This document shows positions 9,291 through 24,678 of a DNA stretch of 64,000 nt, piece after piece. A program made the position numbers and the translations under genes. The notes under the pieces were generated by a model. The model worked only from the letters and a program-made list of their open reading frames with translations. It searched no databases and was not told where the DNA came from. The first letter of the stretch is position 1. Every line of letters starts with the position of its first letter. Origin of the DNA: Gemmiger formicilis. Lineage in GTDB: Bacteria > Bacillota > Clostridia > Oscillospirales > Ruminococcaceae. The stretch lies in contig NZ_FUYF01000010.1 in assembly GCF_900167555.1 (NCBI RefSeq), positions 1-64,000 of the forward strand, in the 5' to 3' direction.

Positions 9291-9307
9291 AACAAAACCT
9301 TCCTCGT

Positions 9308-9313
9308 ATTATA
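9308..9313 (-). promoter_or_regulatory. deoC -10 box, -35 region weak
   Basis: TATAAT on the minus strand, 18 bases before the deoC start. The expected -35 position (about 9331-9336) reads AGGGAC, a poor match, and lies next to the presumed left end of the IS110 element. Confidence 0.45.
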
Positions 9314-9359
9314 AAGTAGTAGTTATTAGAGTCCCTCTCCAAGGACAAAATGCTACAAT

Positions 9360-9549
9360 AGACAAGGTGCTGTGGATTGGTTTAAACCTCCTACCGCAAG
9401 ACGGTTTCGGAAAGGCTCCAACCGCGGCTCTTTGTTTTTAGTGTTAATCAGTTAGATACCGCCAGACGGTTTATATAGAACGAGGTTACATAGCAAAGAG
9501 GTGTGGCTCTAAGCAGCACTGTAAAATAAAACGCCGGAGGTAAAAAGAA
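9360..9549 (+). ncRNA. Candidate IS110 bridge RNA region
   Basis: Non-coding left end of the IS110 element. Two nearly identical hairpins, ACCGCAAGACGGT (9393-9405) and ACCGCCAGACGGT (9458-9470), are spaced 65 bases apart, preceded by a TACAAT -10 box at 9354. In IS110-family elements this position encodes the bridge (seek) RNA, whose two loops pair with target and donor DNA. Assignment of the loops is not possible without target-site comparison. The transposase RBS (CGGAGG, about 9533-9540) ends the region. Confidence 0.5.
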
Positions 9550-10725
9550 ATGATTTTTGTTGGTATCGATGTTGCAAAGGACAAGCACGATTGCTTTATC
9601 CTCAACTCGGAAGGAACGGTCTTGGCAGATGTATTTACCATTGCCAATAACCGCATCGGTTTTGAGACGCTTCTTTCAAGAATCCAAAGCTGTTCCCAAG
9701 GTGAAAGCAAAATAAAAGTAGGGCTTGAAGCCACAGAACATTACAGCTACAATCTGCTGGGGTTTCTTTTAGACAGCGGCCTGGCAACCTATGTCATTAA
9801 CCCTCTGCACACGAACCTCTACCGGAAAAGTCTCAGCCTGCGAAGAACCAAAACAGATCGGATAGACGCGCGTACCATTGCAATGATGCTCATGTCTGAT
9901 GTGGACCTCAAGTCCTACTCAAATACAGCATACCACAATGAAGAGCTAAAGTCACTAACCAGATACAGATTTGATAAGGTAAAAGAGCGCGCCAAGCTGA
10001 AAAGCTCCGTTGCGCGGTTAGTGAATATTCTGTTTCCGGAGCTCGAAAAGCTGGTCTCAAGCCTGCACATCGCTGTTGTATACGCACTGTTGAGCAACTA
10101 TCCGGGTGCAAGCTATATCGCAAACGCCAATACTGAAGAACTCGCTGAGACTCTTTGCACCGCCTCTAAAGGTCGTTATACCAAGTCTAAAACCGCGGAA
10201 ATCCAAGTAGCCGCAGGGGTCTCCATTGGCTCGAAAATGCCTGCTAAGTCTATGGAGTTGAAACACACGATTGCTCTCATCCGCGAGCTGGACAAAGAAA
10301 TTTCTGAGGTAGAATCCGCAATTGACAAGATTACATCTCAGATGGATTCTCCCATCTTTACAATCCCCGGTATTGGCCGACATATGGGTGCAATGATTCT
10401 TGCTGAAGTTGGAGATTTTTCCAACTTTGCAAGCGCAGACAAGCTGCTGGCTTATGCTGGACTCTCTCCATCTACATATCAGTCAGGGCAACTGCAAAAC
10501 TGTTATGCTCACATGGAAAAGCGTGGCTCCAGATATTTGCGATATGCTCTTTTCAATGCCGCCAAATATGTTTGCCTTTGGTGTCCTACATTCTCGGCCT
10601 ATCTTGAAAAGAAGCGTTCTGAGGGAAAGCATTACAATGTTGCCATCTCTCATGCTGCTAAAAAGCTGGTAAGGCTTATTTTTGCTATGCAGCGTTCTGG
10701 GAAAGCCTTCTTAGCTGATTATTAA
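9550..10725 (+). CDS. IS110-family transposase (DEDD recombinase)
   Basis: 391 residues. The N-terminal RuvC-like DEDD domain starts IFVGIDVAKDKHDCFIL (first Asp), with LEATEHYSYNL (Glu) and KTDRIDARTIAMM (Asp-x-x-Asp). A central coiled region follows, then the C-terminal Transposase_20 domain with IPGIGRHMGAMILAEVGD and AGLSPSTYQSGQ, which holds the conserved catalytic Ser. It appears full length and intact. These enzymes are RNA-guided in the characterised members (IS621), working with RNA from the element's non-coding end. Codon use is more AT-rich than neighbouring genes, consistent with transfer. Confidence 0.93.
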   Translation: MIFVGIDVAKDKHDCFILNSEGTVLADVFTIANNRIGFETLLSRIQSCSQGESKIKVGLEATEHYSYNLLGFLLDSGLATYVINPLHTNLYRKSLSLRRTKTDRIDARTIAMMLMSDVDLKSYSNTAYHNEELKSLTRYRFDKVKERAKLKSSVARLVNILFPELEKLVSSLHIAVVYALLSNYPGASYIANANTEELAETLCTASKGRYTKSKTAEIQVAAGVSIGSKMPAKSMELKHTIALIRELDKEISEVESAIDKITSQMDSPIFTIPGIGRHMGAMILAEVGDFSNFASADKLLAYAGLSPSTYQSGQLQNCYAHMEKRGSRYLRYALFNAAKYVCLWCPTFSAYLEKKRSEGKHYNVAISHAAKKLVRLIFAMQRSGKAFLADY

Positions 10726-10874
10726 GCGTGCGATTTTATACGGAGCGAGTATCCGACAACGGATGCTCTTGTTTGCTATACCAATTTTCACCACCTTAAA
10801 ATTTCTCTCGAAAATTTTGTTTTGGGGCTTGACTTTTAATAGTTAGTCTTTCTTTTCGTGTGCGGCAGCAGCCT

Positions 10875-11815: not shown

Positions 11816-13249
11816 TTATCCAATCAGTTTTAATTTTTGAAGTGCATGGGCGATGCCATCATTTTCCACGGTGTCTGTGACCATATCGGCACAGGCGCGC
11901 ACCTGCGGCAGGGCATTGCCCATAGCCACACCGATACCGGCCAGCTGCAGCATTTCCAAATCGTTGTCGGCATCTCCAAAGGCAATGGTTTCCTCCGTGG
12001 TGATACCGATTGCCGCACACAGGGCACGGATACCGTTTTCCTTGCCGCCGGATCGGCTCATCAGATCCACCACGGCATCTCCCCAGCGCTTTGTCCGGCA
12101 ATGGGGCATCTGCCGCAGCAGTTCTTCTTCCTCCTCCTCGTTCACGAAGGGGATGACCTGATATATGCGGCGGTTTTCCAAATCGGAGATGTCACGCACA
12201 GCTGGCACGGCGGTGCCGATTTTTGCCTGCTCTGTCTCCATACGGGAATCCACACAGTTGGCGTACATCCTGTCTTTTTCAAGAAAAATGCAGCTGCAGT
12301 TCTTTTTTTGTAAAAACTGCTTCAATGCCGACAGATCCCCGGCAGGAATGGGCGTTTCCCGCACGATCTGCCCCTGCAGCTCGCAGAGCTGACCGTTCAT
12401 ATAAACAGCACCGTCAACCGTGATCCCGGGCAGCATATTCTCTTCCTCGATTTCCAGCGCATGGCGGCCGGTACACAGAAACACCTGCACACCGCTGCGC
12501 TGTAAAGCCTGCAGTGCCGGGGCTACACCGGGCGGCATCCGATGCCCGCCCACGGTAATCAGGGTACCGTCCACATCAAAGAAGGCTGCGCGTATCCTTT
12601 TTCCGCCGCACGCCGCCAGCGCAGGCAGCTCGGCAAGGCTGTCGATATGCAGCTGCGCCGCCCGCTGGTCAAACGGGAATCTTTCGTCCCGCAGGGCAGC
12701 CACAACGCCGCCCGCCGCCGTACCTGCCTGCACACCGTAGGTGGAGTCCTCCACAATCAGACACTCCTCCGGCCTGCGTTTCAGCTTGTCCATGGTGAAA
12801 CGGTAAATTTCAGGATCCGGCTTGCTGTGGGTAAATTCGTGACCGCTGACGATACAGTCAAACAACTCCCGGATTTTGCACTGTGTCAGGACCTGCTCAA
12901 TACATTCCCGGCTGCTGCTGCTTGCAAGGGCTACCTGCAGTCCCATCTGCTTTAATTCATGCAGCAGCGGGCGAACCTCCTTGCGCAGAATGTCCGGGTA
13001 ATACACCTGGCAGCCGGCGTTCATGGCGTCCATTTCCTGCCGGAACGCGGCATCGTCGGTGCGGCGGCAGAGTTTTGCCATAAAGGGCATATATTCCTGC
13101 CCGGAAATGCCCACCAACGGGTACATGCTTTCCAGGGTGATCCACGGGTAGAGCGATTTCAGGTGCGTATACTGATGGTGCAGGTAGACCGGTTCACTGT
13201 CGATCAGCACGCCGTCCATATCAAAGATGACTGCCTTGATCGGCTTCAT
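11816..13249 (-). CDS. Double HAD-family phosphatase fusion
   Basis: 477 residues holding two complete HAD phosphatases. Residues 1 to about 215 are a subfamily IA, beta-phosphoglucomutase-like domain (FDMDGVLIDSEP motif I; ASSSS motif II; KPDPEIY and VEDSTYGVQAG motif III/IV). From about 216 a Cof/subfamily IIB domain follows (FFDVDGTLI motif I, CTGRH motif II, IAFGDADNDLEML motif IV). All nucleophile Asp residues are present. The start at 13249 (MKPIKAVIFD) is favoured over an upstream open extension lacking family similarity. It is the last gene of the PTS operon, so it probably dephosphorylates sugar phosphates made there; substrate unknown. Confidence 0.85.
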   Translation of the reverse strand: MKPIKAVIFDMDGVLIDSEPVYLHHQYTHLKSLYPWITLESMYPLVGISGQEYMPFMAKLCRRTDDAAFRQEMDAMNAGCQVYYPDILRKEVRPLLHELKQMGLQVALASSSSRECIEQVLTQCKIRELFDCIVSGHEFTHSKPDPEIYRFTMDKLKRRPEECLIVEDSTYGVQAGTAAGGVVAALRDERFPFDQRAAQLHIDSLAELPALAACGGKRIRAAFFDVDGTLITVGGHRMPPGVAPALQALQRSGVQVFLCTGRHALEIEEENMLPGITVDGAVYMNGQLCELQGQIVRETPIPAGDLSALKQFLQKKNCSCIFLEKDRMYANCVDSRMETEQAKIGTAVPAVRDISDLENRRIYQVIPFVNEEEEEELLRQMPHCRTKRWGDAVVDLMSRSGGKENGIRALCAAIGITTEETIAFGDADNDLEMLQLAGIGVAMGNALPQVRACADMVTDTVENDGIAHALQKLKLIG

Positions 13250-13262
13250 GGCGTTTCTCCCT

Positions 13263-13703
13263 TCAGATACCGTCCTCGTCCTCCTGCGGCTGGGCGGGAA
13301 CCTCCAGCACAAACTTGCCGATGTTCTCGTGCCCGGTCTGCATAATGTCGGCGGCCAGTGCATCCACATCGGGGCATTCGTCACCGGTGATGTTGCGCAT
13401 ACACAGATCCATCAGCATACTGCTGTTCAGCCCGGAGATCACACGCACCCTGGGGCGGGTCATGGAAAGCCCCGCTGCGCGGTTGTACGGCGTACCGCCG
13501 GCAATGTCTGCCAGCACCAGAACAGCCTCGCAGTCTGCATAGCTGTCGATTGCCTCTGCCAGCTGCTTTTCAAACACTTCCACATCCATGCCGTCGGCAA
13601 AATCCACGGCCTTTACTTCCGCATCACTGCCTGCCAGCATTTTTACATTGGCAGCCATACCGGCGGCAAAGCCGCCATGCCCGGTCACAACTACACCTAC
13701 CAT
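13263..13703 (-). CDS. PTS EIIA, mannose family
   Basis: 146 residues. It begins MVGVVVTGHGGFAAGM, with His9 the site phosphorylated by HPr, and the ADIAGGTPYNRAAGL motif is typical of EIIA-Man/AgaF. Cytosolic; passes phosphate to EIIB (18146-18622). It is separated from EIIB/C/D by four genes but lies in the same transcription direction. RBS AAAGGAG precedes the ATG. The C-terminal tail is acidic (QPQEDEDGI). Confidence 0.92.
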   Translation of the reverse strand: MVGVVVTGHGGFAAGMAANVKMLAGSDAEVKAVDFADGMDVEVFEKQLAEAIDSYADCEAVLVLADIAGGTPYNRAAGLSMTRPRVRVISGLNSSMLMDLCMRNITGDECPDVDALAADIMQTGHENIGKFVLEVPAQPQEDEDGI

Positions 13704-13747
13704 AGCAAACTATACTCCTTTAGCAAGACCGGGCGCACAGACCCGGC

Positions 13748-14500
13748 TTATTGGTTGACAACTTCAAATTCAAATTTCTGGGTAACGCCGTCCAGATACT
13801 CTTTACTGAGGTCGATCGGACGGTCGTTTTGGTCCATGACCACGTTTTCGACATACAGCACGGGGGAACCGCGGTGTACGCCGAACAGGTTGGCAAACTC
13901 GACATTGGCGGTCTGCGCCATCAGCACACGGCGCGATTTGATGATCCTCTCGTGGTAAACGGTTTCAAAGACATCGTACAGCGAGCGCTGGGCAAAGTCG
14001 TAGGCATCAATACCGGGAAACACAGATTCCGGCACATAGTTTTCCACGAGAACAAAGGGCTTTCCGCTGACATAGCGCATACGCACAAGATGATAGCAGC
14101 GGTCCCCACGTTCGAGCTTGAGCCGTGCAAACAGTTCCGGGGTATAACTTACCCACTCTGCACGCAACACCTCGGTACGGTGTTCCAGGTTCAAAACCCC
14201 CATCTCGGCGGCAAAGCTCAGCTGCTTGTTCAGGAAGCGGCCGCGGGTATCGGGGCTGCGCACAAAAGTACCGCGGCCCCGCATGCGTTCCACAAAGCCT
14301 TCTTCGATCAGCATATTATAAGCCTGCCGCGCAACGGGGCGTGAAATGCCGAACTGGGCGCACAGCTCCTCCTCCGTCGGCAATTTTGTCCCTGCCGACA
14401 GTTTCCCGCTGGTGATAGCCTCCAGCAATGCCTTACGCAGCTGCTCGTACAGAGGGACTGCGCTGATTTTGTCAAGCTGTATTCCGTTCAGTTCGATCAT
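13748..14500 (-). CDS. GntR/HutC-family (UTRA) regulator
   Basis: 250 residues: winged helix-turn-helix at about 12-78 (PLYEQLRKALLEAI, LPTEEELCAQFGISRPVARQ, GRGTFV) and a UTRA ligand domain from about 95. The family includes FrlR, NagR and AgaR-like sensors of phosphosugars. RBS AAGGAG precedes the ATG. It lies within the PTS operon. The probable target is the TATACC-N8-GGTATA palindrome at 18720-18739, which resembles HutC-subfamily sites and lies between both promoters of the island. The ligand is probably the 6-phosphorylated Amadori compound, by inference. Confidence 0.9.
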   Translation of the reverse strand: MIELNGIQLDKISAVPLYEQLRKALLEAITSGKLSAGTKLPTEEELCAQFGISRPVARQAYNMLIEEGFVERMRGRGTFVRSPDTRGRFLNKQLSFAAEMGVLNLEHRTEVLRAEWVSYTPELFARLKLERGDRCYHLVRMRYVSGKPFVLVENYVPESVFPGIDAYDFAQRSLYDVFETVYHERIIKSRRVLMAQTANVEFANLFGVHRGSPVLYVENVVMDQNDRPIDLSKEYLDGVTQKFEFEVVNQ

Positions 14501-14520
14501 AATAGGAAATCTCCTTTTTG

Positions 14521-15390
14521 TTATTCAATGCTGTCCCGGGAGATTTCCGCTTTACAGCCAAAGCCGCCCTGTGCCATACAGTTGCGTGCCGAGACCTGCT
14601 GCCCGGCAGCCAGTGCTGCCAGAAGCGCCTGCTCCGGCATGGGCTTTGCTTTTTGCCACCCCGCAGTATACAGCGAGCAGAGGAATGCAGCAAGGAAAGA
14701 ATCTCCTGCCCCCATTGTATCACTTGCCTCTACCATTTGGGTAGTCTTTTCCACAATTTTCCCTTGTACGGACAACATTTGCCCGGCTGCGCCCATTGTA
14801 GCCAGCACATGCACCACGCCGCGACGATGCAGCGGCGCGCACAATTCCGCAAAAGCAGCCTTGTCCATCGGCTTGCAGGAAAGCATCGCCAGATCTATAC
14901 CGTGGCAAACCTCGTCATAGTAGGCATCGGTGCGGTACTTTTCCTTTTCGCCGAAGTCATAGGCGAACACAGCGGGCAGCGCCTGCACAGCCGCCATCTG
15001 TTCGGGCATTTTGGCGTTGCAGCTGCTGACGATCAGATCGGCGGTTTTCAGCTCGTCCAGCTCCTGCGCACCGATCTGCAGCGGGCCGGTCCAGCTTTCC
15101 CCGGTGATGACCTCGATAAAGCTGCGCTCCCCGTTGACCACATCATAGCTGCACACCTTGGTGGTACGCCCTTGCAAAACGGGGCAATGGCTGATGTCCA
15201 CGCCGTTTTCCCGGAGTGCTTTCTCCACAATATGTGCCATCTTGTCATCGCCGAGGGAGCCGAGATACTCGGCCTGTGCCCCCAGCCGCGCAGCATGAAC
15301 TGCAACGTTTACCGCATTGCCGCCGGGGAAGCACTCCTGTGTATTGTGGTAATAGTCTATTACGTTATCCCCTAATGCAATCAGTTTCAT
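14521..15390 (-). CDS. frlD: PfkB-family kinase, fructoselysine 6-kinase-like
   Basis: 289 residues, ribokinase fold. It starts MKLIALGDNVIDYYHNTQECFPGGNAVNVAVHAARLGA, the N-terminal signature of FrlD-type kinases, and ends with ATP-site motif DTMGAGDSFLAAF containing the catalytic Asp. The ATG at 15390 is preferred to a TTG two codons earlier; it starts 2 bases after the deglycase stop, suggesting translational coupling. A kinase next to a PTS is redundant if substrate arrives already phosphorylated, so it may act on substrate entering by another route or on a released product. Confidence 0.85.
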   Translation of the reverse strand: MKLIALGDNVIDYYHNTQECFPGGNAVNVAVHAARLGAQAEYLGSLGDDKMAHIVEKALRENGVDISHCPVLQGRTTKVCSYDVVNGERSFIEVITGESWTGPLQIGAQELDELKTADLIVSSCNAKMPEQMAAVQALPAVFAYDFGEKEKYRTDAYYDEVCHGIDLAMLSCKPMDKAAFAELCAPLHRRGVVHVLATMGAAGQMLSVQGKIVEKTTQMVEASDTMGAGDSFLAAFLCSLYTAGWQKAKPMPEQALLAALAAGQQVSARNCMAQGGFGCKAEISRDSIE

Positions 15391-15392
15391 AC

Positions 15393-16397
15393 TCAATAGC
15401 TCTCTTTTCTGTAATAGCGGCGGATATCCAGAGAATGATCCGTGATGACCTCAATGTTCTTGCTGATGCGCTGCAGAACAGCCGCCATGACAACGGGGCT
15501 GAGCAGCGGGCGGAACTCATCGCTGATGCCGGGCAGTGCATACTCCTTCGTGTCAAAGCAGGTCAGCTTTTTGGTATGGCGGGCGGCAAACGCCTTTACG
15601 CGCTCGTCCTGTGCACGGGTGGGTCCCTCGGTCAGCAGCAGCGTGGTGCAGACATCGTCCTCCAGCAGCTCCAGTGTGCCGTGGAAGAATTCCGGGCTGG
15701 AAACGCTCTTGGTGCGGATCCACTGGCTTTCCTCCAGCACGCACATGCTGTAACTGTAGGCAGTGGGCCACAGATCGCCGCTGCCGATCCAGATGTTATA
15801 CGGCTCCTTGCAGTAATCCTGCGCATATTTCAAGCACTTGGCATCTGCCTGCTTGCGTACCTGTGCCAGCGCAAAGGCAAGGTTCTTCAGCTCATCCGCA
15901 AAGCGGGGATAGGCATCAAAGTTTCCGCTGCGGTACAGGATGCGACCGATCAGGAGATAGAACACCAGCTCCTGCGGGCGGCCCTCGCCGTAGACGATGG
16001 TGTCATCGCAGATGGATTCCAGCGTGGAGTTCTCCTTGCCGACGGCGGCAAACAGGCGCACGCCCTGCTCTTTCAGCCAGTTGGCTGCCTTTACGGTCTC
16101 GGCGGTATCGCCGGACTTCGAGGTCAGGAACGCCACGGTCTTATCGGTGATGCGGTTGCAGTCACCGGTCATCAGGTTGGCGGACAGGACATTTTCGACC
16201 GGCAGGCGGGACATGTGGCGGATATAGAAGGCGAACGGATCCAGCATCGCCTGAGAACCGCCGCTGCTGGTGAACAGCAGCAGGTCAAACCCGTTATCCA
16301 CAATCGAATCCGCGATTGCCTCGATCTTGGCGCGCTGGTCGTAGATCTTGGCGCCGTTGGCAATGATCTGATTTTCGTCAAAATTTACCATGCTCAT
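15393..16397 (-). CDS. SIS-domain deglycase, FrlB/GfrF-like
   Basis: 334 residues with tandem SIS folds. Sugar-phosphate motifs TSSGGSQAM (about 43) and TSKSGDTAETV (about 90) are present, SPEFFHGTLELLEDD is the family's catalytic-glutamate segment, and the C-terminus DHSLDIRRYYRK matches the ending of fructoselysine-6-phosphate deglycase FrlB (recalled as ...NPDERRYY). It probably hydrolyses a 6-phosphofructosyl-amine to glucose 6-phosphate and amine. ATG at 16397 with GGAGG about 11 bases upstream; a second ATG is two codons later. It immediately precedes the frlD-like kinase. Confidence 0.82.
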   Translation of the reverse strand: MSMVNFDENQIIANGAKIYDQRAKIEAIADSIVDNGFDLLLFTSSGGSQAMLDPFAFYIRHMSRLPVENVLSANLMTGDCNRITDKTVAFLTSKSGDTAETVKAANWLKEQGVRLFAAVGKENSTLESICDDTIVYGEGRPQELVFYLLIGRILYRSGNFDAYPRFADELKNLAFALAQVRKQADAKCLKYAQDYCKEPYNIWIGSGDLWPTAYSYSMCVLEESQWIRTKSVSSPEFFHGTLELLEDDVCTTLLLTEGPTRAQDERVKAFAARHTKKLTCFDTKEYALPGISDEFRPLLSPVVMAAVLQRISKNIEVITDHSLDIRRYYRKESY

Positions 16398-16445
16398 GAG
16401 TACAATAGCCTCCATTTGTAATTTTGTTATGACAATATGGTCTGT

Positions 16446-16490
16446 AAAAAATGCGGCTCGCGGGGGAATGCTGAACCGGCGCGAGCCGCC
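16446..16490 (-). terminator. Attenuator between EIID and deglycase genes
   Basis: On the minus strand GCGGCTCGCG and CGCGAGCCGC pair across a 17-base loop and are followed by ATTTTTTAC, a classic intrinsic terminator inside the operon. It would set a lower level for the deglycase, kinase and regulator than for EIIB/C/D. Confidence 0.7.
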
Positions 16491-16500
16491 GCAGTAAAAC

Positions 16501-17286
16501 TTACATGATGCCCAGGAAGGACAGTGCAACCGACAAAGCAATGACCAACAGGATCAGCTTCATGGTGTTGACATTTTTCTTCTTGAACAGCCAGTAGAGC
16601 AGGAACACAAAGCCCAGCGGCAGAATGTTGGGCATGATGGAGTCAAAGATGCCCTGCACGGAAACACTGGAGATGACAAGCGTTTCGGGGAAAGCAAAGG
16701 ATACATAGCTGGGGATCAATCCGCCAACGACCATAACGCCCAGAATACCGGCAGCCTTGCTGATATAAGCGGCGTTATCGCCGATGAACTTGATGGAGTT
16801 GACACCGGCATTATAGCCCAGACGCACGAACCAGATGCGGCTGAAGATAGCGGTCAGTGCCCAGAACAGAATGTAGAAGATGGGGCCCAGAACATTGTTC
16901 TGCGTTGCCAGAGAGCAGCAGATGGAGGCAATGATGGGCATGGCGGTGTACCACCAGATGGCGTCGCCCAAACCTGCCAGAGGTCCGAACAGACCGGTTT
17001 TCAGGCTGTGGATCATTGTGCGATCCTGACCGGCCTCCTCCATGGAGACGATCAGACCCTGCAGGATAGCAGCCATGTGCGGCTCGGTATTGATGAAGTC
17101 GAGGTTGTTTTTCAGCGCGGCGGCCATTTCCTCGTTGTTGTCGCCGTGGATCTTGCGGAAGCACTTGGTCATGCCGTAGCAGAAGCCTACGGCCTGCATA
17201 CGCTCAAAGCTGAAGCAGCACTGTTCCGCCATAGAACGGACGGCCATTTCGTTGAGGTCTTTTTTGGTAATTTTGTTAGATGCCAT
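16501..17286 (-). CDS. PTS EIID, mannose family
   Basis: 261-residue membrane component: cytosolic N-terminal half with HSLKTGLFGPLAGLGDAIWW, the EIID-Man signature, and hydrophobic C-terminal segments. The ATG at 17286 lies 9 bases after AAGGAG; a TTG two codons earlier is less likely. It overlaps the EIIC gene end by 11 bases, indicating coupled translation. With EIIC it forms the sugar channel. Confidence 0.93.
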   Translation of the reverse strand: MASNKITKKDLNEMAVRSMAEQCCFSFERMQAVGFCYGMTKCFRKIHGDNNEEMAAALKNNLDFINTEPHMAAILQGLIVSMEEAGQDRTMIHSLKTGLFGPLAGLGDAIWWYTAMPIIASICCSLATQNNVLGPIFYILFWALTAIFSRIWFVRLGYNAGVNSIKFIGDNAAYISKAAGILGVMVVGGLIPSYVSFAFPETLVISSVSVQGIFDSIMPNILPLGFVFLLYWLFKKKNVNTMKLILLVIALSVALSFLGIM

Positions 17287-18076
17287 CTTCAAAATCTCCT
17301 TCCTGGGCGGCAGTTGCAGCGGATGCAGCCGTCAGCTTGGCAGTCTCCATATCGCGGGTGAAATTGACATAGGCGATGCAACCCGCAATAACAGCAATGG
17401 GCAGGATGTTCTGGCAGTTGGTAATGACCATAATGACAAAACCGGCAAGCAGATAGGCTGCGTTTTCCTTCTTGAGCATAACGACCAGCAGCAGGGCAAG
17501 GCCGACAGCCGGCATCAGACCACCGGCAACTTCAAAGCCGTGGACAAGCCATTCCGGGAAGGCTGCCACAAAAGCGGAAATACCGCTCTGCAATGCGTAG
17601 GTGGACAGGAACGCGGCAAGGGCAAACATGGCGGCATACAGGATCCAGCCGGTATACATTACTTTGGCAATGCCTTTTTCGTCACCGGCGGCAGCGCATT
17701 TGTCAACCTTCGGCAGGAAGCCGGCGTAGAAGGTGTTGGTGCCGGTGTTGATCCACTGACCGATCAGTGCGAACGGAACGGCAAGACCCAGCGCCGTGTT
17801 GACATCGCAGCCGGTGGTGTACGCCAGCACGGTGGTCATCAGACCGGCAAACAGGGGATCCGGCGGCACGGTGCCGCCAACGGTCAGCAGACCCAGGTAG
17901 GAAAGCTCCGCAACGGCACCTGCCTGCATGCCGAGGCGTACATCACCGAGGATGATGCCCGTGAAAAACGCTACGACCAGCGGGCGGAACCACATAAAGG
18001 TTTCCATGTGTTTGTCAATCGCGCAGATAAAAACGAGCAGCGCAATCAGCAAACCTTGCACGAGTGTGATTTGCAT
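17276..18076 (-). CDS. PTS EIIC, mannose/sorbose family
   Basis: 266-residue membrane channel, PTS-EIIC type 4: MQITLVQGLLIALLVFICAID at the N-terminus, then GDVRLGMQAGAVAELSYLG, the conserved GAxxE-type segment. RBS AGAGGAGAG precedes the ATG. It lies between EIIB and EIID. The family transports hexoses, amino sugars and, in Salmonella Gfr, glucoselysine/fructoselysine; the neighbouring deglycase and kinase genes favour the latter type. Confidence 0.92.
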   Translation of the reverse strand: MQITLVQGLLIALLVFICAIDKHMETFMWFRPLVVAFFTGIILGDVRLGMQAGAVAELSYLGLLTVGGTVPPDPLFAGLMTTVLAYTTGCDVNTALGLAVPFALIGQWINTGTNTFYAGFLPKVDKCAAAGDEKGIAKVMYTGWILYAAMFALAAFLSTYALQSGISAFVAAFPEWLVHGFEVAGGLMPAVGLALLLVVMLKKENAAYLLAGFVIMVITNCQNILPIAVIAGCIAYVNFTRDMETAKLTAASAATAAQEGDFEDGI

Positions 18077-18145
18077 AGATTTTCTCTCCTCTTTATAAAA
18101 TATATTTTTTGCTCTGCAGACCGCCTGCAGAGCCGGAACCTTGGG

Positions 18146-18622
18146 TTACTTTTCAAAGTCCAGCTTGTGGTCGCCGGGTGCGATCTGGATGTAGACATCC
18201 ACACCCTTGGCACGGATGGCGCGAAGGTCGTCCTTATCCTTCTCGTCCATATAAACGTGCACATCGCCGGTCACTTCCTTGCCGGGGCCGACATGCATAT
18301 TGCCGATGCACAGCTTATCAATGGGAACGCCGCCCTCCACCAGCTTGCGGGCGCTCTGCGGGTTGCGCACGACCAGGAAGATGTGCTGGCTGGCGGATGC
18401 CTTGTGAATGACTGCAATGGTCTTGTCCAGCGTAAAGAATCGGATGCCGCAGCCGGAGCTTTTCGCGGTGGCGGTCATCAGGCTTTGCTGCAGCGGGTCG
18501 GCAGCGGCCAGATCATCCGCCACAACAATAAGGTTGACACCCGGTAAAGCGGTGGTCCACGCCACACCGACCTGCCCGTGTACTAAGCGATTGTCGATTC
18601 TTGTCATCAAAATGTCAGGCAT
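18146..18622 (-). CDS. PTS EIIB, mannose/sorbose family
   Basis: 158 residues. The start at 18622 is set by AAGGAGG and by the family N-terminus PDILMTRIDNRLVHGQVG, where the His of RLVHGQV (residue 16) is the phosphorylation site. Cytosolic; transfers phosphate from EIIA to sugar passing through EIIC/D. First gene of the leftward operon, directly behind the operator-controlled promoter at 18718-18746. Confidence 0.93.
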   Translation of the reverse strand: MPDILMTRIDNRLVHGQVGVAWTTALPGVNLIVVADDLAAADPLQQSLMTATAKSSGCGIRFFTLDKTIAVIHKASASQHIFLVVRNPQSARKLVEGGVPIDKLCIGNMHVGPGKEVTGDVHVYMDEKDKDDLRAIRAKGVDVYIQIAPGDHKLDFEK

Positions 18623-18712
18623 AAGTTTTTCCTCCTTGTAAGATGCTGCAAAGATTTTTAGATTTTTTCTTAAATTTTTAGAAATTTTTTCTAAAATCTT
18701 TGTGTTATTGTA

Positions 18713-18741
18713 ATGACAATATACCAAAGTTGTGGTATAAT
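18713..18741 (+). promoter_or_regulatory. Rightward promoter of the Amadori island
   Basis: ATGACA (18713-18718), 17-base spacer, TATAAT (18736-18741), reading to the SIS gene at 18833. Its spacer contains the GntR-type palindrome and it is interlocked with the leftward promoter. Confidence 0.7.
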
Positions 18742-18746
18742 GTCAA
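18718..18746 (-). promoter_or_regulatory. Leftward promoter of the PTS operon
   Basis: On the minus strand TTGACA (18741-18746), 17-base spacer, TATATT (18718-18723), reading to EIIB. It occupies almost exactly the same DNA as the rightward promoter. Confidence 0.75.
18720..18739. promoter_or_regulatory. GntR/UTRA-type operator palindrome
   Basis: TATACC-AAAGTTGT-GGTATA with perfect 6-base arms. It lies in the spacers of both interlocked promoters, so one bound dimer would block both. The HutC subfamily commonly recognises GGTATA-like half sites; assignment to the regulator at 13748-14500 is inference. Confidence 0.65.
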
Positions 18747-18770
18747 TAGAGTTCGGGGACTTCCCGAAGA

Positions 18771-18802
18771 TTTTAACGTTTTACACAAAGTGAACGTTAA
18801 AA
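18771..18802. repeat. Perfect 10-base inverted repeat in leader
   Basis: TTTTAACGTT, 12 bases, AACGTTAAAA, in the 5' leader of the rightward SIS gene, after a small TTCGGG/CCCGAA hairpin at 18752-18768. It could be a second operator or an RNA structure; it does not resemble the GntR site. Confidence 0.5.
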
Positions 18803-18832
18803 ATTTAGACAAAATGTGAAGGAGACTGCTTT

Positions 18833-19957
18833 ATGGAACACAAAAAGACTATGCTGGACTACATTGCCGACTGCCCGGAGTTTATCCGCAACAATGTCGC
18901 CGACAGCGCTGCGCTGACAAAGCCCCTTGTGGATGAGTATGTAAGCGGCGGCTACAAGAACATCTGGATCGTTGCGTGCGGTTCTTCCTCCAACGGTTCG
19001 CTCTGCGCACGGCAGTTTATCCGCCGCCACCTGAAGTGCGAGGTCAAGATCGTTACCCCCTTTAATTTTGTATCCAGCGAGAATGATTTCGGCGAGACCG
19101 ATATGGTCGTTGTCGTCAGCCAAAGCGGCTACAGCCTGAACGCCCTGGACGCCATCAAGGTCATTGAGGCAAAGGGCCGCCGCTGCATCGGCCTGACCGG
19201 CGATGTCAACAGCGATCTGGGCAAGGTGTGCGATGTTGTCGCCAACTACGGTGTCGGGCGCGAAACAGTCGCGTATGTCACCCGCGGTGTCACCACGCTG
19301 GCACTTTTCTTTATGCTGTTTGCCGTGGAGGCTTCTGTCCGTCTGGGCATCAAGACCGCTGCCGAGGGCGAGGCTGTCAAGCAGCAGCTGCTGAAAGCCG
19401 CCGACATCAACGCCGCCGTACAGGCACAGACCCCTTCCTTTATTAAAGAGCACTACCGTCAGCTGTCCGGCATGACCAACGCCTATGTCTGCGGCGTGGG
19501 TGCCAACCTCGGCACCGCAAGCGAGGGCGCACTGAAATTCGGCGAGACCGTCAGCATCCCCACCGCTGCCTATGAGGTCGAGGAGTACATCCACGGCCCC
19601 AACATCCAGATGACCCCCCGCTACAGCGTATTTCTGATTGACGGCGGCGAAGGCACGGAGCGCATCCACCGCATTTTTGAGGGTACCAAAATCGTGACGG
19701 ATAACGCCTTCCTGCTGACGCGCTGCGCCGATTACAAAGACGAGCACAATGTTATGTATGTGCCTATGGATGTGCCGGAGGAAATCACCCCGCTGTGCTG
19801 GCTGCCCTTCTTCCAGATGACGGCCTGCCGCCTGACGGATGATCTGGACCGCTGGAACAAGCATCCGCTGCAGCGCGCGATGGAGAAGTTTGTTTCCTCC
19901 AAGAGTGCCAACTATGTCAACAGCCCCTTCAGTGAAGACACGCCGGGCCGCGGGTAA
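18833..19957 (+). CDS. SIS-domain sugar isomerase/deglycase, GfrE-like
   Basis: 374 residues, two GlmS-type SIS domains: VACGSSSNGSLCARQF (about 46) and VVSQSGYSLNALDAI (about 96) bind the phosphosugar, and EVEEYIHGPNIQM (about 245) contains the catalytic Glu/His-like segment of GlmS-type isomerases and deglycases. RBS AAGGAG precedes the ATG. It differs clearly from the FrlB-like protein in the leftward operon, so the island encodes two distinct SIS enzymes. In Salmonella the PTS-linked gfr operon also has two (GfrE for 6-phosphoglucoselysine, GfrF for 6-phosphofructoselysine), which is the best parallel. A plain aminosugar isomerase role is an alternative. Confidence 0.8.
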   Translation: MEHKKTMLDYIADCPEFIRNNVADSAALTKPLVDEYVSGGYKNIWIVACGSSSNGSLCARQFIRRHLKCEVKIVTPFNFVSSENDFGETDMVVVVSQSGYSLNALDAIKVIEAKGRRCIGLTGDVNSDLGKVCDVVANYGVGRETVAYVTRGVTTLALFFMLFAVEASVRLGIKTAAEGEAVKQQLLKAADINAAVQAQTPSFIKEHYRQLSGMTNAYVCGVGANLGTASEGALKFGETVSIPTAAYEVEEYIHGPNIQMTPRYSVFLIDGGEGTERIHRIFEGTKIVTDNAFLLTRCADYKDEHNVMYVPMDVPEEITPLCWLPFFQMTACRLTDDLDRWNKHPLQRAMEKFVSSKSANYVNSPFSEDTPGRG

Positions 19958-19962
19958 GAGCG

Positions 19963-21021
19963 ATGGCGTGGATATCTGCCGCCTTTTTCTGTCTGGGTGC
20001 TGCGGACACATTGCTGGGTGATCGGCTGGGGTTGGGCAATGCTTTCCGGCAGGGTTTTGCCGCCGTGGTGGATCTGCTGCTGCTCATGACCGGTTTTATG
20101 GCACTGGCACCCTGGCTTGGGACCCATCTGGCGCCTGTTATCACGCCGGTGTTTTCCGCCTTGGGGTGTGACCCTTCTCTGTTTGCCTCACTGTTTTTAA
20201 GCTGCGATGCAGGCGGCGCCGTGCTGGCCGCACAAATCGCACAGGAACCGGCTGCCGGGCTGTACAACGGTTTGATCGTGGCGGCCTTTCTCGGTGCCAC
20301 GATCAACGGTACGATCCCACTGGCGCTGGGTCGGCTGACAGGCTCCAAACGAGCCGCCGCCGTTCGCGGATTGTTTCTCGGCTTTCTGGTCCTGCCGGTG
20401 GGCTGCCTGCTTACCGGGGCGCTGTGCGGCATTCCCCTGTCGGTTCTGCTGCACAACACCTGGCCTGTTCTGGCAGTAGCGGTCCTGTTGCTGCTGCTTT
20501 TCAAATCCGGCAGCAGCGCGATCGGCCCGATCTTCAACGGCATCTCTCTGGCGGTACGCGGTCTGACCCTGTTCGGCTTTTGCATCTCTGTCCTGCAGGA
20601 AACGACCGGTATTGTGCTGCTGGAGGGGCTGACCCCCTTGGCGGAAATCTACCCGGTTATATGCAGTATCGGCGCGTTTCTTGCCGGGATCCTGCCGTTT
20701 TTCGCCTTTGTACAGCGTCTGTTGACCGCACCGCTGGCCAAGCTGGCCGCACGGCTGCAGCTGGAGCCCGCCTCCATCACCGGTCTGGTCGTGACCTCCG
20801 CCAACTGCATCCCCACATTGCTGAGTCTTGATACGCTGGAGGAACGCGGCATCACACTGAACACGGCCTATGCCGTAGTAGCGGCTTACAGCGTCGGCGA
20901 TTTTCTGGCATTTACCCTGCAATTCAGCCCCGCACACGCCCTGCCGATGATGGCAGGCCGCCTTTTAAGCGGCTTGCTGGCAGTGGTGCTCTGCCTGAAA
21001 ACGACCCCCAAAACCACCTGA
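19963..21021 (+). CDS. EutH-like ethanolamine permease family protein
   Basis: 352-residue integral membrane protein with about ten hydrophobic segments. The N-terminus AADTLLGDRLGLGNAFRQGF and the segment SLFLSCDAGGAVLAAQIAQE match the EutH family (GNxxGLG...F.EG, LLACDMGG), which moves ethanolamine. It starts 5 bases after the deglycase stop, with no strong RBS, so it is probably translationally coupled. No eut genes or microcompartment genes are present. Within this island it may import or release the amine half of the Amadori compound. Family assignment is fairly firm; substrate is open. Confidence 0.75.
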   Translation: MAWISAAFFCLGAADTLLGDRLGLGNAFRQGFAAVVDLLLLMTGFMALAPWLGTHLAPVITPVFSALGCDPSLFASLFLSCDAGGAVLAAQIAQEPAAGLYNGLIVAAFLGATINGTIPLALGRLTGSKRAAAVRGLFLGFLVLPVGCLLTGALCGIPLSVLLHNTWPVLAVAVLLLLLFKSGSSAIGPIFNGISLAVRGLTLFGFCISVLQETTGIVLLEGLTPLAEIYPVICSIGAFLAGILPFFAFVQRLLTAPLAKLAARLQLEPASITGLVVTSANCIPTLLSLDTLEERGITLNTAYAVVAAYSVGDFLAFTLQFSPAHALPMMAGRLLSGLLAVVLCLKTTPKTT

Positions 21022-21498: not shown

Positions 21499-22593
21499 TT
21501 ACCCCTTGCCCCCGCGCAGCGCCTCAAGGTCGCTGCGGGTGTCGATGTCCCGCAGCTCGGCGGCGGGGGTGGGCAGCAGGCGGATCGCCTGCGGGTGGGC
21601 GCGCAGCACGGCGCTGCCGCCGCTACCCTCCGGCAGGTGAAGGAGGGCAGCAAAATAATCCCGACCGAACAGCACAGGGCTGCCCGGTGTGCCGTCGGGT
21701 GCGGCCGGCCGCCGGATCGTGTCCGGCGCGGCACCAATCGCCAGCGCCTCCAGCGTCTGGCGGGTCAGGCAGGGCTGGTCCCCCGGCAGAAACACACACC
21801 CCTGCAGGTCGGGCTGCTGCGCCAGCAGCGCGGTCAGGCCAAGGCGCACCGTATCGCTGCGGCGTGGCTCGGCATGGCGCAGCACGGGGAAGCCCCCTGC
21901 ACGGCAGAGGGCCTCGACCTCGGCCGTGCGGGTCACGGCAATGCGCCCGGCAAACACCGGCGCGGCGGCCAGCGCCAGCGCATGGGCAGCCAGCGGCCGA
22001 CCGTTCAGCTCGGCCATCAGCTTGTTGCCGCCGAACCGCCGCCCCAGCCCCGAGGCCATGACGATGCAGCCCAGCGGCGGCACAGGGCAGTCCAGATCGT
22101 ACACAAAGGCGTCCGGGTCGGCGCAGAGCGCGCGCAGGAACGGGGTGTCCTGCTTGCGGACGACTGCGAGAACGCGGCAGACTTTCAACATATCCAGCAC
22201 GCTTTGTTGAAAATCCGCGCAGCCGCTCTCCAGATAGCCAAGCTCGTCCAGCACGGCCCAGCCGCCGGCCGCCGCCATCCGCTGCAGGGCGGGCAGCCCC
22301 ACGGCGGCAAAGCCGGCCGGCACGGGGCGCATCCGGTTTTCACCGGGGGGCAGGGCGGCATCAAACCGCCCGATGACCGCCGCTGCCCCGGCGGCTGCAT
22401 CGCGCATCTCGACCCATCTGCCCGGGACGGCAGCGGTGAGAAGCATCGGGGCATCGGGGCAGAGGGATGGCATAAGTGCGCGCAGCAGCGTTGTTTTGCC
22501 GCTGCCGCGCCCGCCGGTCAGCAGCAAGTGGCGCTTACCGCTGGCCCGGAAAGAACGCAGAATAGAGCTCGCGGCTGGTCTGTACACAGGCAT
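21499..22593 (-). CDS. P-loop NTPase fused to MobA-like nucleotidyltransferase
   Basis: 364 residues. Residues 1 to about 165 are an NTPase_1/THEP1-like P-loop domain (LLLTGGRGSGKTTLLRAL Walker A; AVLDELGYLES Walker B). From about 170 an NTP_transf_3 domain follows (CIVMASGLGRRFGGNKLM, the MobA/MocA nucleotide-binding loop, and VFLPGDQPCLT metal-binding Asp). MocA-type enzymes attach CTP to molybdopterin for xanthine-dehydrogenase-family enzymes, matching the neighbours. The Met at 22593 is preferred because GAGG lies 9 bases upstream. It overlaps the ModE-like gene by about 59 bases. The fusion itself is unusual; the NTPase may act in cofactor delivery or maturation. Confidence 0.8.
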   Translation of the reverse strand: MPVYRPAASSILRSFRASGKRHLLLTGGRGSGKTTLLRALMPSLCPDAPMLLTAAVPGRWVEMRDAAAGAAAVIGRFDAALPPGENRMRPVPAGFAAVGLPALQRMAAAGGWAVLDELGYLESGCADFQQSVLDMLKVCRVLAVVRKQDTPFLRALCADPDAFVYDLDCPVPPLGCIVMASGLGRRFGGNKLMAELNGRPLAAHALALAAAPVFAGRIAVTRTAEVEALCRAGGFPVLRHAEPRRSDTVRLGLTALLAQQPDLQGCVFLPGDQPCLTRQTLEALAIGAAPDTIRRPAAPDGTPGSPVLFGRDYFAALLHLPEGSGGSAVLRAHPQAIRLLPTPAAELRDIDTRSDLEALRGGKG

Positions 22594-22876
22594 CACGGTA
22601 GGCCTCATACCTTTCTAAAAATTGGCGGGCCTCGGCGGTCAGGGTGCTGCCGCCGCCGCCCCGCCCGCCGATGGTCTTGCAGGTCAGGGCAAAGCCCAGT
22701 TCTTTTTCGGCGTGCTGCACAAGCCGCAGCGCCTTGGAGTAGGAAAGCCCCATCTGCGCCGCTGCGCTGCGCAGCGAGCCGGTCTCCTCGATCAGATGGA
22801 GCAGGCGGCAGGGCCCCTCGCCAAAAAAGCGCTCGCCTGCGTCATCGCAGAGCATCACGCGCAAAGCAGGTTTCAT
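22535..22876 (-). CDS. ModE-like winged-helix DNA-binding protein
   Basis: 113 residues with LysR-type HTH of the ModE N-terminal kind: LLHLIEETGSLRSAAAQMGLSYSKALRLVQHAEKELGF, then GGRGGGGSTLTAEARQFLERY, the glycine-rich wing of ModE. The molybdate-binding MOP domains of full ModE are absent, as in many short Firmicute and archaeal homologues. RBS GAGGTGAT precedes the ATG. Placed between the cofactor gene and the importer, it probably regulates molybdate uptake; a candidate site lies at 25792-25819. Confidence 0.85.
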   Translation of the reverse strand: MKPALRVMLCDDAGERFFGEGPCRLLHLIEETGSLRSAAAQMGLSYSKALRLVQHAEKELGFALTCKTIGGRGGGGSTLTAEARQFLERYEAYRDACVQTSRELYSAFFPGQR

Positions 22877-22885
22877 GGTATCACC

Positions 22886-23698
22886 TCACAGCGGCAGCAG
22901 GGCCAGACGGCGTCGGCCCCGGCAGTCGGTAACGGGCAGCAGCTCCAGCGGACCGTACACGGCGGCAAGGGCTGCCTGCAGCACGGCAGGCGGGTCGGTT
23001 CTGGGGTGCAGCACCGCCGCGACCCCGCCGCCCTGCAATACCACCAGTATATCACAGCTGTCCAGCGCCAGCGCGGGGTCGTGCAGGCAGACCAGCGCGG
23101 TCTTGCCGCCGGTGTGGACCAGCTGCGCCAGCAGCGCGGTCATCCGGCTGCGGTTCGCAAGGTCAAGCGCACTGTCCGGTTCGTCCAGCAAAAGCAGCGG
23201 CGCATCCTCGGCAATCGTGCGCGCCAGAATACAGAGCTGCTTCTCGCCGCCGCTCAGCGTCAGGTAGTCCTGCCCGGCCTTGTCGGCCAGACCTACGGTG
23301 CGCAGGGCCTCGTCCGCAGCGGCGCGCATGGCGGCGGTGGGGCTTTGCAGGACCCCCAGCCGCGGGTTGAAGCCCATAAGCACGACCTCCCGCGCCGAGA
23401 GCGAGACCGAGATGCCGCTCTGCTGCGGGATATAGCTGACGGTCTGCGCAAGCCTGCGGGTGGACAGACTCTCCAGCGGGACGCCGTCCAGAAGGCACTG
23501 CCCGGTGTGGGGCAGCAGCCCGGCAGCCGCCTTGAGCAGCGTGGTCTTGCCGCTGCCGTTTACCCCCAGCAGCCCGATCAGCTGCCCTGACACCGGGACA
23601 GAAAAGCTGACCCCTTGCAGCACGGCTGCTGTGCCGTACCGTACGGTGAGGTCCTGCACGCAAAGCCCCACGGGCGGGGGCGTGGTTTGTGGCATCAT
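22886..23698 (-). CDS. FecCD-type importer ATPase (probable molybdate)
   Basis: 270 residues, ABC ATPase of the iron-siderophore/B12/MolC class: Walker A GVNGSGKTTL (about 42), signature LSGGEKQL (about 138), Walker B LLLLDEPDSALDL. The ATG at 23698 (MMPQ) follows GGAGGG by 7 bases and overlaps the permease stop by 4 bases (ATGA). Context with ModE, a MobA-like enzyme and a molybdenum hydroxylase suggests molybdate or tungstate, as for MolBCA of Haemophilus; iron or cobalamin transport remains possible. Confidence 0.85.
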   Translation of the reverse strand: MMPQTTPPPVGLCVQDLTVRYGTAAVLQGVSFSVPVSGQLIGLLGVNGSGKTTLLKAAAGLLPHTGQCLLDGVPLESLSTRRLAQTVSYIPQQSGISVSLSAREVVLMGFNPRLGVLQSPTAAMRAAADEALRTVGLADKAGQDYLTLSGGEKQLCILARTIAEDAPLLLLDEPDSALDLANRSRMTALLAQLVHTGGKTALVCLHDPALALDSCDILVVLQGGGVAAVLHPRTDPPAVLQAALAAVYGPLELLPVTDCRGRRRLALLPL

Positions 23699-24678
23699 GA
23701 CGCATCCCTCCCCGGCCACAGGATCAGATAAAGCAGAAACGGCACGCCCAGCAGCGAGGTAAAGATGCTGACCGGCAGCTCGGTGGAGGCTGCCGTCTTG
23801 GCCAGCGTGTCGGCGGCCAGCAGCAGGGCGCTGCCCAGCAGCCCGCTCAGCAGGCAGGCCGAGCGCCGGTTGTGCCCCGCCAGCAACCGGGCGCTGTGGG
23901 GGGCCAGCAGCCCGACAAAGCTGATAAGCCCTGTCACGCTGACAACGGCGGCAACCGTCATGGTGGCAAGCGTCAGCAGCAGCAGGCGCATCGCACCCAC
24001 CCGCACGCCGAGCAGCCGGGCCTCGCCCTCCTCAATCGAGAGCAGCAGCGCCTGCCGGTGCAGCGCAAAGATCGCTGCGCAGCAGACCAGCACAACCGGC
24101 ACCGGGAACCACACCCGGCTGCGGGTCACGGCGGCCAGACTGCCCATGATCCAGTACTCGATGCTGGCCAGCTCCTTCTCGGGGTCGGCGGTCAGCTTGA
24201 GCAGCATCAGCAGCGTCTGGGCCAGCGCGTGGACGGCGATGCCCGCCAGCACCAGCGACATTTTGCTGCGCCCCGGCGCGGCAGCGGCCAGCCCCAGCGA
24301 GAGGAACACCGCCGCCAGCCCGCCCGCAAAGGCACAGACCGTGGTGGACAGCGCCCCTGACGAAACGAACAGGATGGCGAACGCCGCGCCGACACTGGCC
24401 CCCGAGGAGACGCCGATGATGTCGGGGCTTGCCAGCGGGTTGCGGAATACGGTCTGGTAGACAAAGCCGGCCACCCCCAGTCCAAAGCCGCCGATCAGCG
24501 CCATAACGGCGCGGGGCAGCCGCAGCACGGTGAAGGTGCGCACCGCCATGGCATCGCCGGCCAGCAGCGCCGCCGGTGTTATGGGGTAGCGGCCCAGCGC
24601 AAGGGCCGCACCAAAGGCCATAAAAACGCAGAGCGCTGCGCCAAGAAGGCACAGCGCCGTGCGCTTGCGGTTATTCAT
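23695..24678 (-). CDS. FecCD-family permease (probable molybdate)
   Basis: 327-residue inner-membrane permease of the BtuCD/FecCD fold with nine to ten hydrophobic segments; GFGLGVAGFVYQTVFRNPLASPDIIGVSSGA is the family signature. The start at 24678 (MNNRKRTAL) overlaps the binding-protein stop by 8 bases, indicating coupling; an earlier extension reads into the binding-protein gene and is rejected. Confidence 0.88.
   Translation of the reverse strand: MNNRKRTALCLLGAALCVFMAFGAALALGRYPITPAALLAGDAMAVRTFTVLRLPRAVMALIGGFGLGVAGFVYQTVFRNPLASPDIIGVSSGASVGAAFAILFVSSGALSTTVCAFAGGLAAVFLSLGLAAAAPGRSKMSLVLAGIAVHALAQTLLMLLKLTADPEKELASIEYWIMGSLAAVTRSRVWFPVPVVLVCCAAIFALHRQALLLSIEEGEARLLGVRVGAMRLLLLTLATMTVAAVVSVTGLISFVGLLAPHSARLLAGHNRRSACLLSGLLGSALLLAADTLAKTAASTELPVSIFTSLLGVPFLLYLILWPGRDAS

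Follow-up and report, generated by a model that had tools for sequence, protein, structure and literature searches.

Amadori products from heated food reach the gut, and their use, microbe by compound, is partly known. In the excerpt available to us, one study puts the fructoselysine supplied by Western diets at 500–1000 mg per day and gives the Gfr scheme, citing Miller 2015 (PMC12675984). Here we describe a ten-gene island at positions 11,816–21,021 of a 64,000-nucleotide stretch of Gemmiger formicilis (contig NZ_FUYF01000010.1, positions 1–64,000), the whole of which is called the window below. With moderate confidence we read the ten genes as one regulon for amine-bound sugars, Amadori and Heyns compounds alike, built from two modules, a phosphotransferase system (PTS) branch and a kinase branch. 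The island mixes uptake of Aga type with cleavage of Gfr type, a kinase of Frl/Fra type and an altered EutH, and it probably serves glycated amines. An original prediction, made from the DNA letters without database searches, held that no described Amadori operon is known to have the full set, and among the matches listed from the open-licence literature nothing was named on all ten genes.

Several described systems share parts of the island. Our reference for gfr (GfrABCDEF of Salmonella) is a Klebsiella operon (L143) chosen by gene order and neighbours: its genes are arranged as in Salmonella gfr, and opgB, dnaC and dnaT lie beside it as they do at the Salmonella locus. Like the island, gfr combines a PTS of the mannose family with two SIS proteins, the first of GfrE type and the second of GfrF type. 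However, the island has an Aga-type permease, a GntR/UTRA regulator instead of the sigma-54-dependent one of Klebsiella gfr, an additional kinase, double HAD and EutH, and a GfrE-type gene placed in a divergent unit. The frl system (E. coli FrlABCD-R) shares an FrlD-like PfkB kinase, an SIS deglycase and a regulator gene of its own, but the island's first SIS protein, SIS1, is on the GfrF branch (23% identity to FrlB), FrlA permease and FrlC epimerase are missing, and a PTS is present. The fructose-asparagine system fra, taken from a Klebsiella plasmid (L142), likewise has a GntR regulator, an SIS deglycase and an FrlD-type kinase, although its SIS belongs to another branch (24% identity), a C4-dicarboxylate-type transporter is annotated and no PTS adjoins. 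The aga/gam system of E. coli supplies the closest counterparts of the island's EIIB, EIIC and EIID, namely AgaB, AgaC and AgaD, whereas an AgaS-clade SIS, an aldolase and AgaR are all missing from the ten genes.

Two plasmid clusters hold other combinations. That of L. hordei pL11822-2 (L137) has a PTS, a GfrF-branch SIS (46% identity) and a PfkB kinase, but its PTS is of the Gfr branch, with no GfrE-type SIS and no EutH match in the 17 kb fetched. The AgaBCD-EIIA-SIS run of an L. paracasei N1115 plasmid (L140) shares an Aga-type PTS (40–62%) and a GfrE-type SIS (~34%), but there is no SIS1, kinase, HAD or EutH match in the 12.9 kb fetched. The EutH proteins of ethanolamine operons share PF04346 and ~34–36% identity with the island's EutH, which differs in having GDF for GDH, other subfamily-specific residues and a host in which no EutB was found. 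Finally, the available excerpt of the microSLAM study describes a fructoselysine PTS operon of seven genes, sometimes eight, in F. prausnitzii and reports finding it in Gemmiger qucibialis as well; GfrE is absent from it, and one of its genes has no Salmonella counterpart (PMC12136445). Compared by description only, this operon resembles the island in EIIABCD, a GfrF-type SIS, a regulator and one unmatched gene, whereas its GfrE-type gene is reported absent and the excerpt mentions no EutH; the left operon of the island may be the same operon or a relative of it.

Results

Translations of open reading frames (ORFs), Pfam and NCBIfam place ten full-length genes in the interval, in two divergent groups. 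The minus-strand group reads, in order, EIIB-EIIC-EIID-SIS1-PfkB-GntR-EIIA-HAD/HAD and the plus-strand group SIS2-EutH. All ten proteins pass a Pfam gathering score and none of the ten translations contains an internal stop codon; start codons were chosen by us wherever the longest ORF extended further upstream. Every gene named in the original prediction was found, full length and where it had been placed. Two details depart from that prediction: the PTS is Aga-type, and the EutH protein, although clearly in PF04346, scores under the NCBIfam EutH cut-offs that it matches.

The same ten genes recur in the same order and orientation in Gemmiger formicilis MCC627 (L031), at 97–99% identity across all ten proteins, and in Clostridiaceae bacterium strain 9 (L032), at 55–87%. 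The Solobacterium metagenome-assembled genome (MAG) RGIG4449 (L033) keeps order and orientation at 47–82% identity, its HAD gene matched in the first domain only. Parts of the island, truncated by contig ends, occur in a second Solobacterium MAG (L034) and in uncultured Gemmiger (L035 and L037, apparently one contig encountered twice). With its ten-gene order conserved in other records, the island is a real unit and more than a chance assembly; the neighbourhood search for the same gene set that had been proposed with the original prediction found the full set in the three named records besides the window.

By the genomes sampled, the island is rare and patchy in distribution. SIS2 at 70% identity or more is present in 3 of 35 Gemmiger-genus genomes, the window's own included, and at E <= 1e-45 in the window's own genome alone among 398 sampled phylum genomes. 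SIS1 at 84% or more occurs in two genomes besides the window's own among 396 sampled family genomes, a sample that covers some species only, does not list genome G002 although it carries SIS1, and does not let named Faecalibacterium genomes be distinguished. One further genome of the genus (G001) has PfkB-GntR-EIIA-HAD at 97–99%, at a contig edge. Because the island occurs in Oscillospiraceae, Clostridiaceae and Erysipelotrichaceae records, its distribution suggests horizontal transfer, with assembly or binning errors in the records as the alternative.

The two SIS proteins, SIS1 (15,393–16,397, minus strand) and SIS2 (18,833–19,957, plus strand), were placed in a maximum-likelihood tree of 52 proteins, rooted at the midpoint only and with AgaS and GlmS as long branches. 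SIS1 falls in the group holding Klebsiella GfrF, the type for fructoselysine-6-phosphate (31 rows, support 100/100), and SIS2 in the group holding Klebsiella GfrE, the type for glucoselysine-6-phosphate (11 rows, 100/99), while AgaS and GlmS join neither. SIS1 lies outside the FrlB clade (23.1% identity to FrlB) and is 38.3% identical to Klebsiella GfrF; the top Protein Data Bank (PDB) match of both is 2a3n, at 235.3 bits for SIS1 and 648.6 bits for GfrF. SIS2 is 41.9% identical to an E. faecium plasmid protein and 25.9% to Klebsiella GfrE. Its best NCBIfam models are GlmS and NagB-II, and the NCBIfam profiles of SIS2 and SIS1 match those of Klebsiella GfrE and GfrF, under the same cut-offs. 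All 52 aligned proteins keep a Glu-X15-His pair at the columns of GlmS E488/H504 and FraB E214/H230, the catalytic residues of those two enzymes; the pair is Glu223/His239 in SIS1 and Glu238/His254 in SIS2. Because it is kept, both are likely to be active enzymes, on substrates that the pair does not indicate. Since SIS1 clusters with GfrF, SIS2 with GfrE and neither of them with AgaS or GlmS, an Amadori- or Heyns-type role is the best reading for them. Among the viral contigs searched there was one SIS1 relative, at 38% identity on the viral-database contig IMGVR_UViG_3300011160_000003 (L174 1–1008), and no EIIC relative.

The PfkB-family kinase (14,521–15,390, minus strand) has a GAGD motif and FrlD as its top NCBIfam model, at 133.6 bits; it scores 75.2 bits for fructokinase and 62.0 for the 1-phosphofructokinase (1-PFK) type. 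Its FrlD score is below the cut-off of 247, as is that of an annotated FraD-type kinase (157.5 bits). It clusters with FrlD/FraD-type kinases and not with FruK, E. coli PfkB or RbsK, its placement inside the group being unsettled. Three more genes follow on the minus strand. The GntR/UTRA transcriptional regulator (13,748–14,500; PF00392 and PF07702) also accompanies SIS1-PfkB in two loci without a PTS (L038 and L100). The mannose-family EIIA (13,263–13,703; PF03610) has AgaF as top NCBIfam model, at 113.5 bits with a cut-off of 130. The last gene (11,816–13,249) encodes a 477-aa fusion of a beta-PGM-like HAD (PF00702/PF13419 at 4–184) and a Cof-type HAD phosphatase (PF08282 at 223–470). A single HAD, 35% identical to the N-terminal HAD of the fusion, closes the PTS-SIS-SIS run of E. 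faecium pC10-7-1, a HAD comes after the PTS-SIS run in G189, and a single HAD follows the SIS1-PfkB-GntR module in G002; from these runs the HAD is, by gene neighbourhood, a recurring partner of such operons.

The permease consists of EIIB (18,146–18,622), EIIC (17,276–18,076; PF03609) and EIID (16,501–17,292; PF03613), all on the minus strand. EIIB is 54.5% identical to E. coli AgaB versus 24.8% to Klebsiella GfrB, EIIC 41.7% to AgaC versus 28.5% to GfrC, and EIID 42.1% to AgaD versus 34.1% to GfrD. In a tree of concatenated EIIC and EIID (15 rows), the three permeases from island loci share a group with three of Aga type, supported at 100/100, and the tree places the Gfr permeases of Klebsiella and E. 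raffinosus outside that group. EIIB scores 235.8 bits against the AgaB model, above its curated cut-off of 180, where Klebsiella GfrB reaches 90.4, while EIIC and EIID score under their Aga model cut-offs. PTS enzyme I was found in the host and in five of the six genomes checked, but not in G677, a MAG.

A rival reading is hexosamine catabolism. The Aga-type PTS would import a free hexosamine such as galactosamine, whose 6-phosphate the SIS proteins would deaminate or isomerise, and the PfkB protein would be a tagatose- or fructose-6-phosphate kinase. An EIIB above the AgaB cut-off, the fully supported grouping of EIIC and EIID with Aga, and GlmS and NagB-II as the top models of SIS2 all favour it. 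We nevertheless consider it unlikely. Klebsiella GfrE has the identical GlmS/NagB-II profile, the SIS proteins group with GfrF and GfrE rather than with AgaS (a long branch), and the kinase scores higher for FrlD than for the fructokinase and 1-PFK models. Moreover, none of the ten genes matches an aldolase, a deacetylase or an AgaI-type family in the Pfam and NCBIfam rows shown, and EutH is left without a role.

Set beside the original prediction, the two SIS deglycases of gfr type stand, SIS1 with GfrF and SIS2 with GfrE, and the FrlD-like kinase stands in its top model and in a score comparable to that of a FraD-type kinase, though not in reaching the cut-off. The gfr-type PTS has to be given up, as the permease sits on the Aga (galactosamine) branch. 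A clear tie to GlcNAc or galactosamine use had been named as what would refute the Amadori assignment; the permease does hint at hexosamine-like sugars, but the SIS enzymes do not.

Inspection of the gaps between genes gave a candidate operator, TTGTAATNACAA, whose placement in a subsequent scan ties SIS2-EutH to the rest of the island. In the window it lies between the divergent units at 18,708–18,719 (TTGTAATGACAA), overlapping a 34-bp dyad at 18,713–18,746, and upstream of SIS1 at 16,424–16,435 in a form with one mismatch (TTGTTATGACAA). The divergent gaps of L031–L034 also hold it, with one mismatch in L032 and as two sites each in L033 and L034. A site with one mismatch precedes SIS2 in L035, and in L038 and L100, the loci without a PTS, exact copies precede SIS1. 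All eight exact copies in island-family loci are in the expected gaps. By comparison, 34 other loci (559,130 bp) contain one exact and six one-mismatch sites, and an exact copy is expected 0.02 times in the window. Six further loci in the same scan comprise four with no site (L039, L137, L139 and L143), L136 with a one-mismatch site within a HAD gene, and L037, which duplicates the L035 site. The 34-bp dyad of the divergent gap was rejected as a shared site: it is present in L031 and not among the dyads of L032–L035.

Parts of the island also occur apart. SIS1-PfkB-GntR is found without adjoining PTS genes in G002 and G081 (SIS1 84–86%, PfkB 68–78%, GntR 67–76%), and a genome-wide search at E <= 1e-15 did not find EIID in G002 (93% complete) or G081 (73% complete). 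Near the module in both genomes, a GfrE-clade SIS gene is followed by a gene for a BadF/BadG-type ATPase (L038 8675–9655, L100 4937–5962), possibly a kinase for Heyns-type compounds. Such a pairing would be expected if every deglycase required a phosphorylation step of its own and the PTS took over one of these in the island. Conversely, the L. paracasei N1115 plasmid has an Aga-type PTS and EIIA upstream of a GfrE-type SIS, with neither SIS1 nor kinase matched in the sequence fetched. As both sets occur apart, we propose that two modules, each bringing a phosphorylation step of its own, have been joined in the island. The second uptake route that the original prediction had raised gains some support from the PTS-less SIS1-kinase-regulator relatives.

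A plainer explanation makes the island the Gemmiger version of the F. prausnitzii operon, a fructoselysine/glucoselysine operon with lysine as the amine and the kinase and EutH as accessories. In its favour, that operon is described as gfrABCDF plus a regulator and an unmatched gene and extends to Gemmiger qucibialis (PMC12136445, in the excerpt available), and the left operon of the island amounts to seven genes plus the HAD. We regard it as unlikely, however, given that the excerpt reports GfrE absent where the island has a GfrE-type SIS2, that the island permease is not Gfr-type, and that SIS1 at 84% or more is confined to two genomes besides the window's own in the family sample described above (some species, G002 not listed).

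The EutH-family membrane transporter (19,963–21,021, plus strand) scores 279 bits for PF04346 (gathering score 25) and under all four NCBIfam EutH cut-offs matched. The island EutH proteins make up a clade of their own on a long stem (1.51; support 100/100). Its sister group (100/99) is a tandem pair of EutH proteins from G108, encoded upstream of eutA-eutB-eutC. All six island proteins, from about four lineages, have Ser80, Ala83, Gly116, Thr151, Leu292, Tyr309 and Phe314, whereas the 27 other EutH proteins have Ala80 in 24, Met83 in 23, Phe116 in 26, Gly151 in 22, Met292 in 27 and Phe309 in 21, with His314 in 17 and Gln314 in 10. The GDH motif of eut-operon EutH reads GDF in all six. A confident AlphaFold2 model (pLDDT 89.1, pTM 0.88) has short-helix breaks near 79–84 and 308–312, which we infer to be hairpin tips lining the substrate site; the smaller residues at Met83->Ala and Phe116->Gly would suit a cargo larger than ethanolamine. 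The PDB copies searched held nothing that matched it by sequence at E <= 1 or by fold at E <= 0.001; the 50 rows listed from the fold search have TM-scores of ~0.1–0.2. Ten other EutH homologues (L084–L086, L088–L094) form a separate branch with Gln for the GDH histidine, likely another subfamily with a different cargo.

EutB was found in none of ten genome handles (at most eight distinct genomes; G013/G674 and G030/G678 look like the same assemblies), while the E. coli positive control was detected. Four distinct genomes of this set carry the full island (window, G013/G674, G675 and G676) and the others parts or the module. Across the 35 Gemmiger-genus genomes no EutB exceeded the cut-off, with a single weak 18-bit match. 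EutH homologues are present in 28 of 247 family genomes, and 15 loci around them hold no relative of the island SIS, PTS, GntR, HAD or PfkB. Twelve neighbours of non-eut EutH genes gave no hint of a substrate: at E <= 1e-6 five of them matched no Pfam family, and the remainder were mixed (RsgI, SpoVAD, TatD, Glu/Leu dehydrogenase, aminotransferase, FeoB, GH31).

The original prediction was thus right about a EutH relative, a PF04346 member, albeit from a subfamily of its own, with substitutions where other EutH proteins are conserved. Family membership makes ethanolamine a lead on the amine, not evidence, and ethanolamine as that amine is weakened. The substrate suggested as an example in the original prediction, fructosyl- or glucosyl-ethanolamine, which glycated phosphatidylethanolamine of food could supply, with EutH moving ethanolamine, is distinctly unlikely. 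The permease-family annotation, the eutA, eutB and eutC genes in the locus of the nearest non-island EutH and literature seen in excerpt on Amadori-glycated phosphatidylethanolamine, powdered milk included, speak for it. Against it, EutB was found in none of the ten handles (at most eight distinct genomes), which would close that route of ethanolamine breakdown, and at 83, 116, 292, 309 and 314 the island EutH deviates from all, or the majority, of the 27 others.

Discussion

In the two-module regulon that we prefer, the GntR regulator would govern all units via TTGTAATNACAA, as the conserved sites suggest. In the PTS branch, the Aga-type PTS would import and 6-phosphorylate an N-substituted 2-amino-hexose of Heyns type, and SIS2, of GfrE type, would cleave the Heyns-type phosphate to fructose-6-phosphate and the free amine. 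In the kinase branch, an Amadori compound would arrive in the cytoplasm unphosphorylated and be phosphorylated by the FrlD-like kinase, and SIS1, of GfrF type, would cleave the product to glucose-6-phosphate and the free amine; SIS1 may also accept a PTS-delivered phosphate. The EutH-like protein would most likely export the released amine, which is favoured because the hosts checked are without ethanolamine ammonia-lyase, the alternative being substrate import for the kinase branch. The double HAD might remove surplus or dead-end sugar phosphates. The sequences show which genes are present and conserved, the clades they fall into, their modular make-up and the sites they share, while substrate, transport direction and catalysis are predicted.

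A more far-reaching reading, which we put forward only tentatively, is that glycated-amine systems come in a third kind, represented by the island. Two deglycases of opposite regio-type would be supplied by an amino-sugar PTS and by a kinase, and a repurposed EutH with an altered substrate site would move the amine out or the glycated amine in.

Several points weigh against the two-module regulon. PTS and kinase share one operon (EIID-SIS1-PfkB-GntR-EIIA), contrary to two separate branches, and on the L. hordei plasmid PfkB likewise stands in one run with a PTS of the Gfr branch and a relative of SIS1 (46%), with no EutH match. The lack of a PTS is weak in G081, which is 73% complete and has SIS1 393 bases from a contig end, so that G002 is the better case. 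In G030 (89% complete), SIS2-EutH lies at a contig end and no EIID was found, and SIS2-EutH may thus also exist without a PTS. On a second L. paracasei plasmid no SIS match adjoins the Aga-type PTS; in the plasmids compared, the Aga-type permease and the GfrE-type SIS are not always together. As to substrate, the Aga permease branch fits free galactosamine as well as substituted hexosamines, SIS2 shares just 26% identity with Klebsiella GfrE, the Glu-His pair is also kept in AgaS and GlmS and hence uninformative, and the kinase is both below the FrlD cut-off and without a resolved place inside the FrlD/FraD group. Finally, the TTGTAATNACAA motif was derived from these same gaps, so its counts are descriptive, and they represent ~6 independent lineages, with L031 near-identical to the window and L034 to L033.

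If the reading is true, the island adds, for a genus of the human gut, a further way to take up and cleave such compounds, shows the modular assembly of such systems and gives the EutH family a role outside ethanolamine breakdown. It also calls for caution with automatic annotation, as a single unit can carry the labels galactosamine PTS, fructoselysine kinase and ethanolamine permease at once.

Other features of the window

An Rfam scan of the window returned nothing at gathering scores. An IS110-type element (9,305–10,847; ORF 9,550–10,725), typed from its translation only, splits a stretch that is uninterrupted in G001 and G013, where the blocks ending at 9,304 and starting at 10,848 abut. 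An ARAGORN tRNA-Ser call at 23,844–23,921 (minus strand) falls inside an ABC-permease-looking ORF (23,695–24,747) and is probably false. The ORF at 21,499–22,608 reads, by impression from the translation only, as a P-loop NTPase fused to a MobA-like nucleotidyltransferase, and adjoins what appear in the same way to be a short ModE-like protein and an iron/cobalamin-type ABC transporter.

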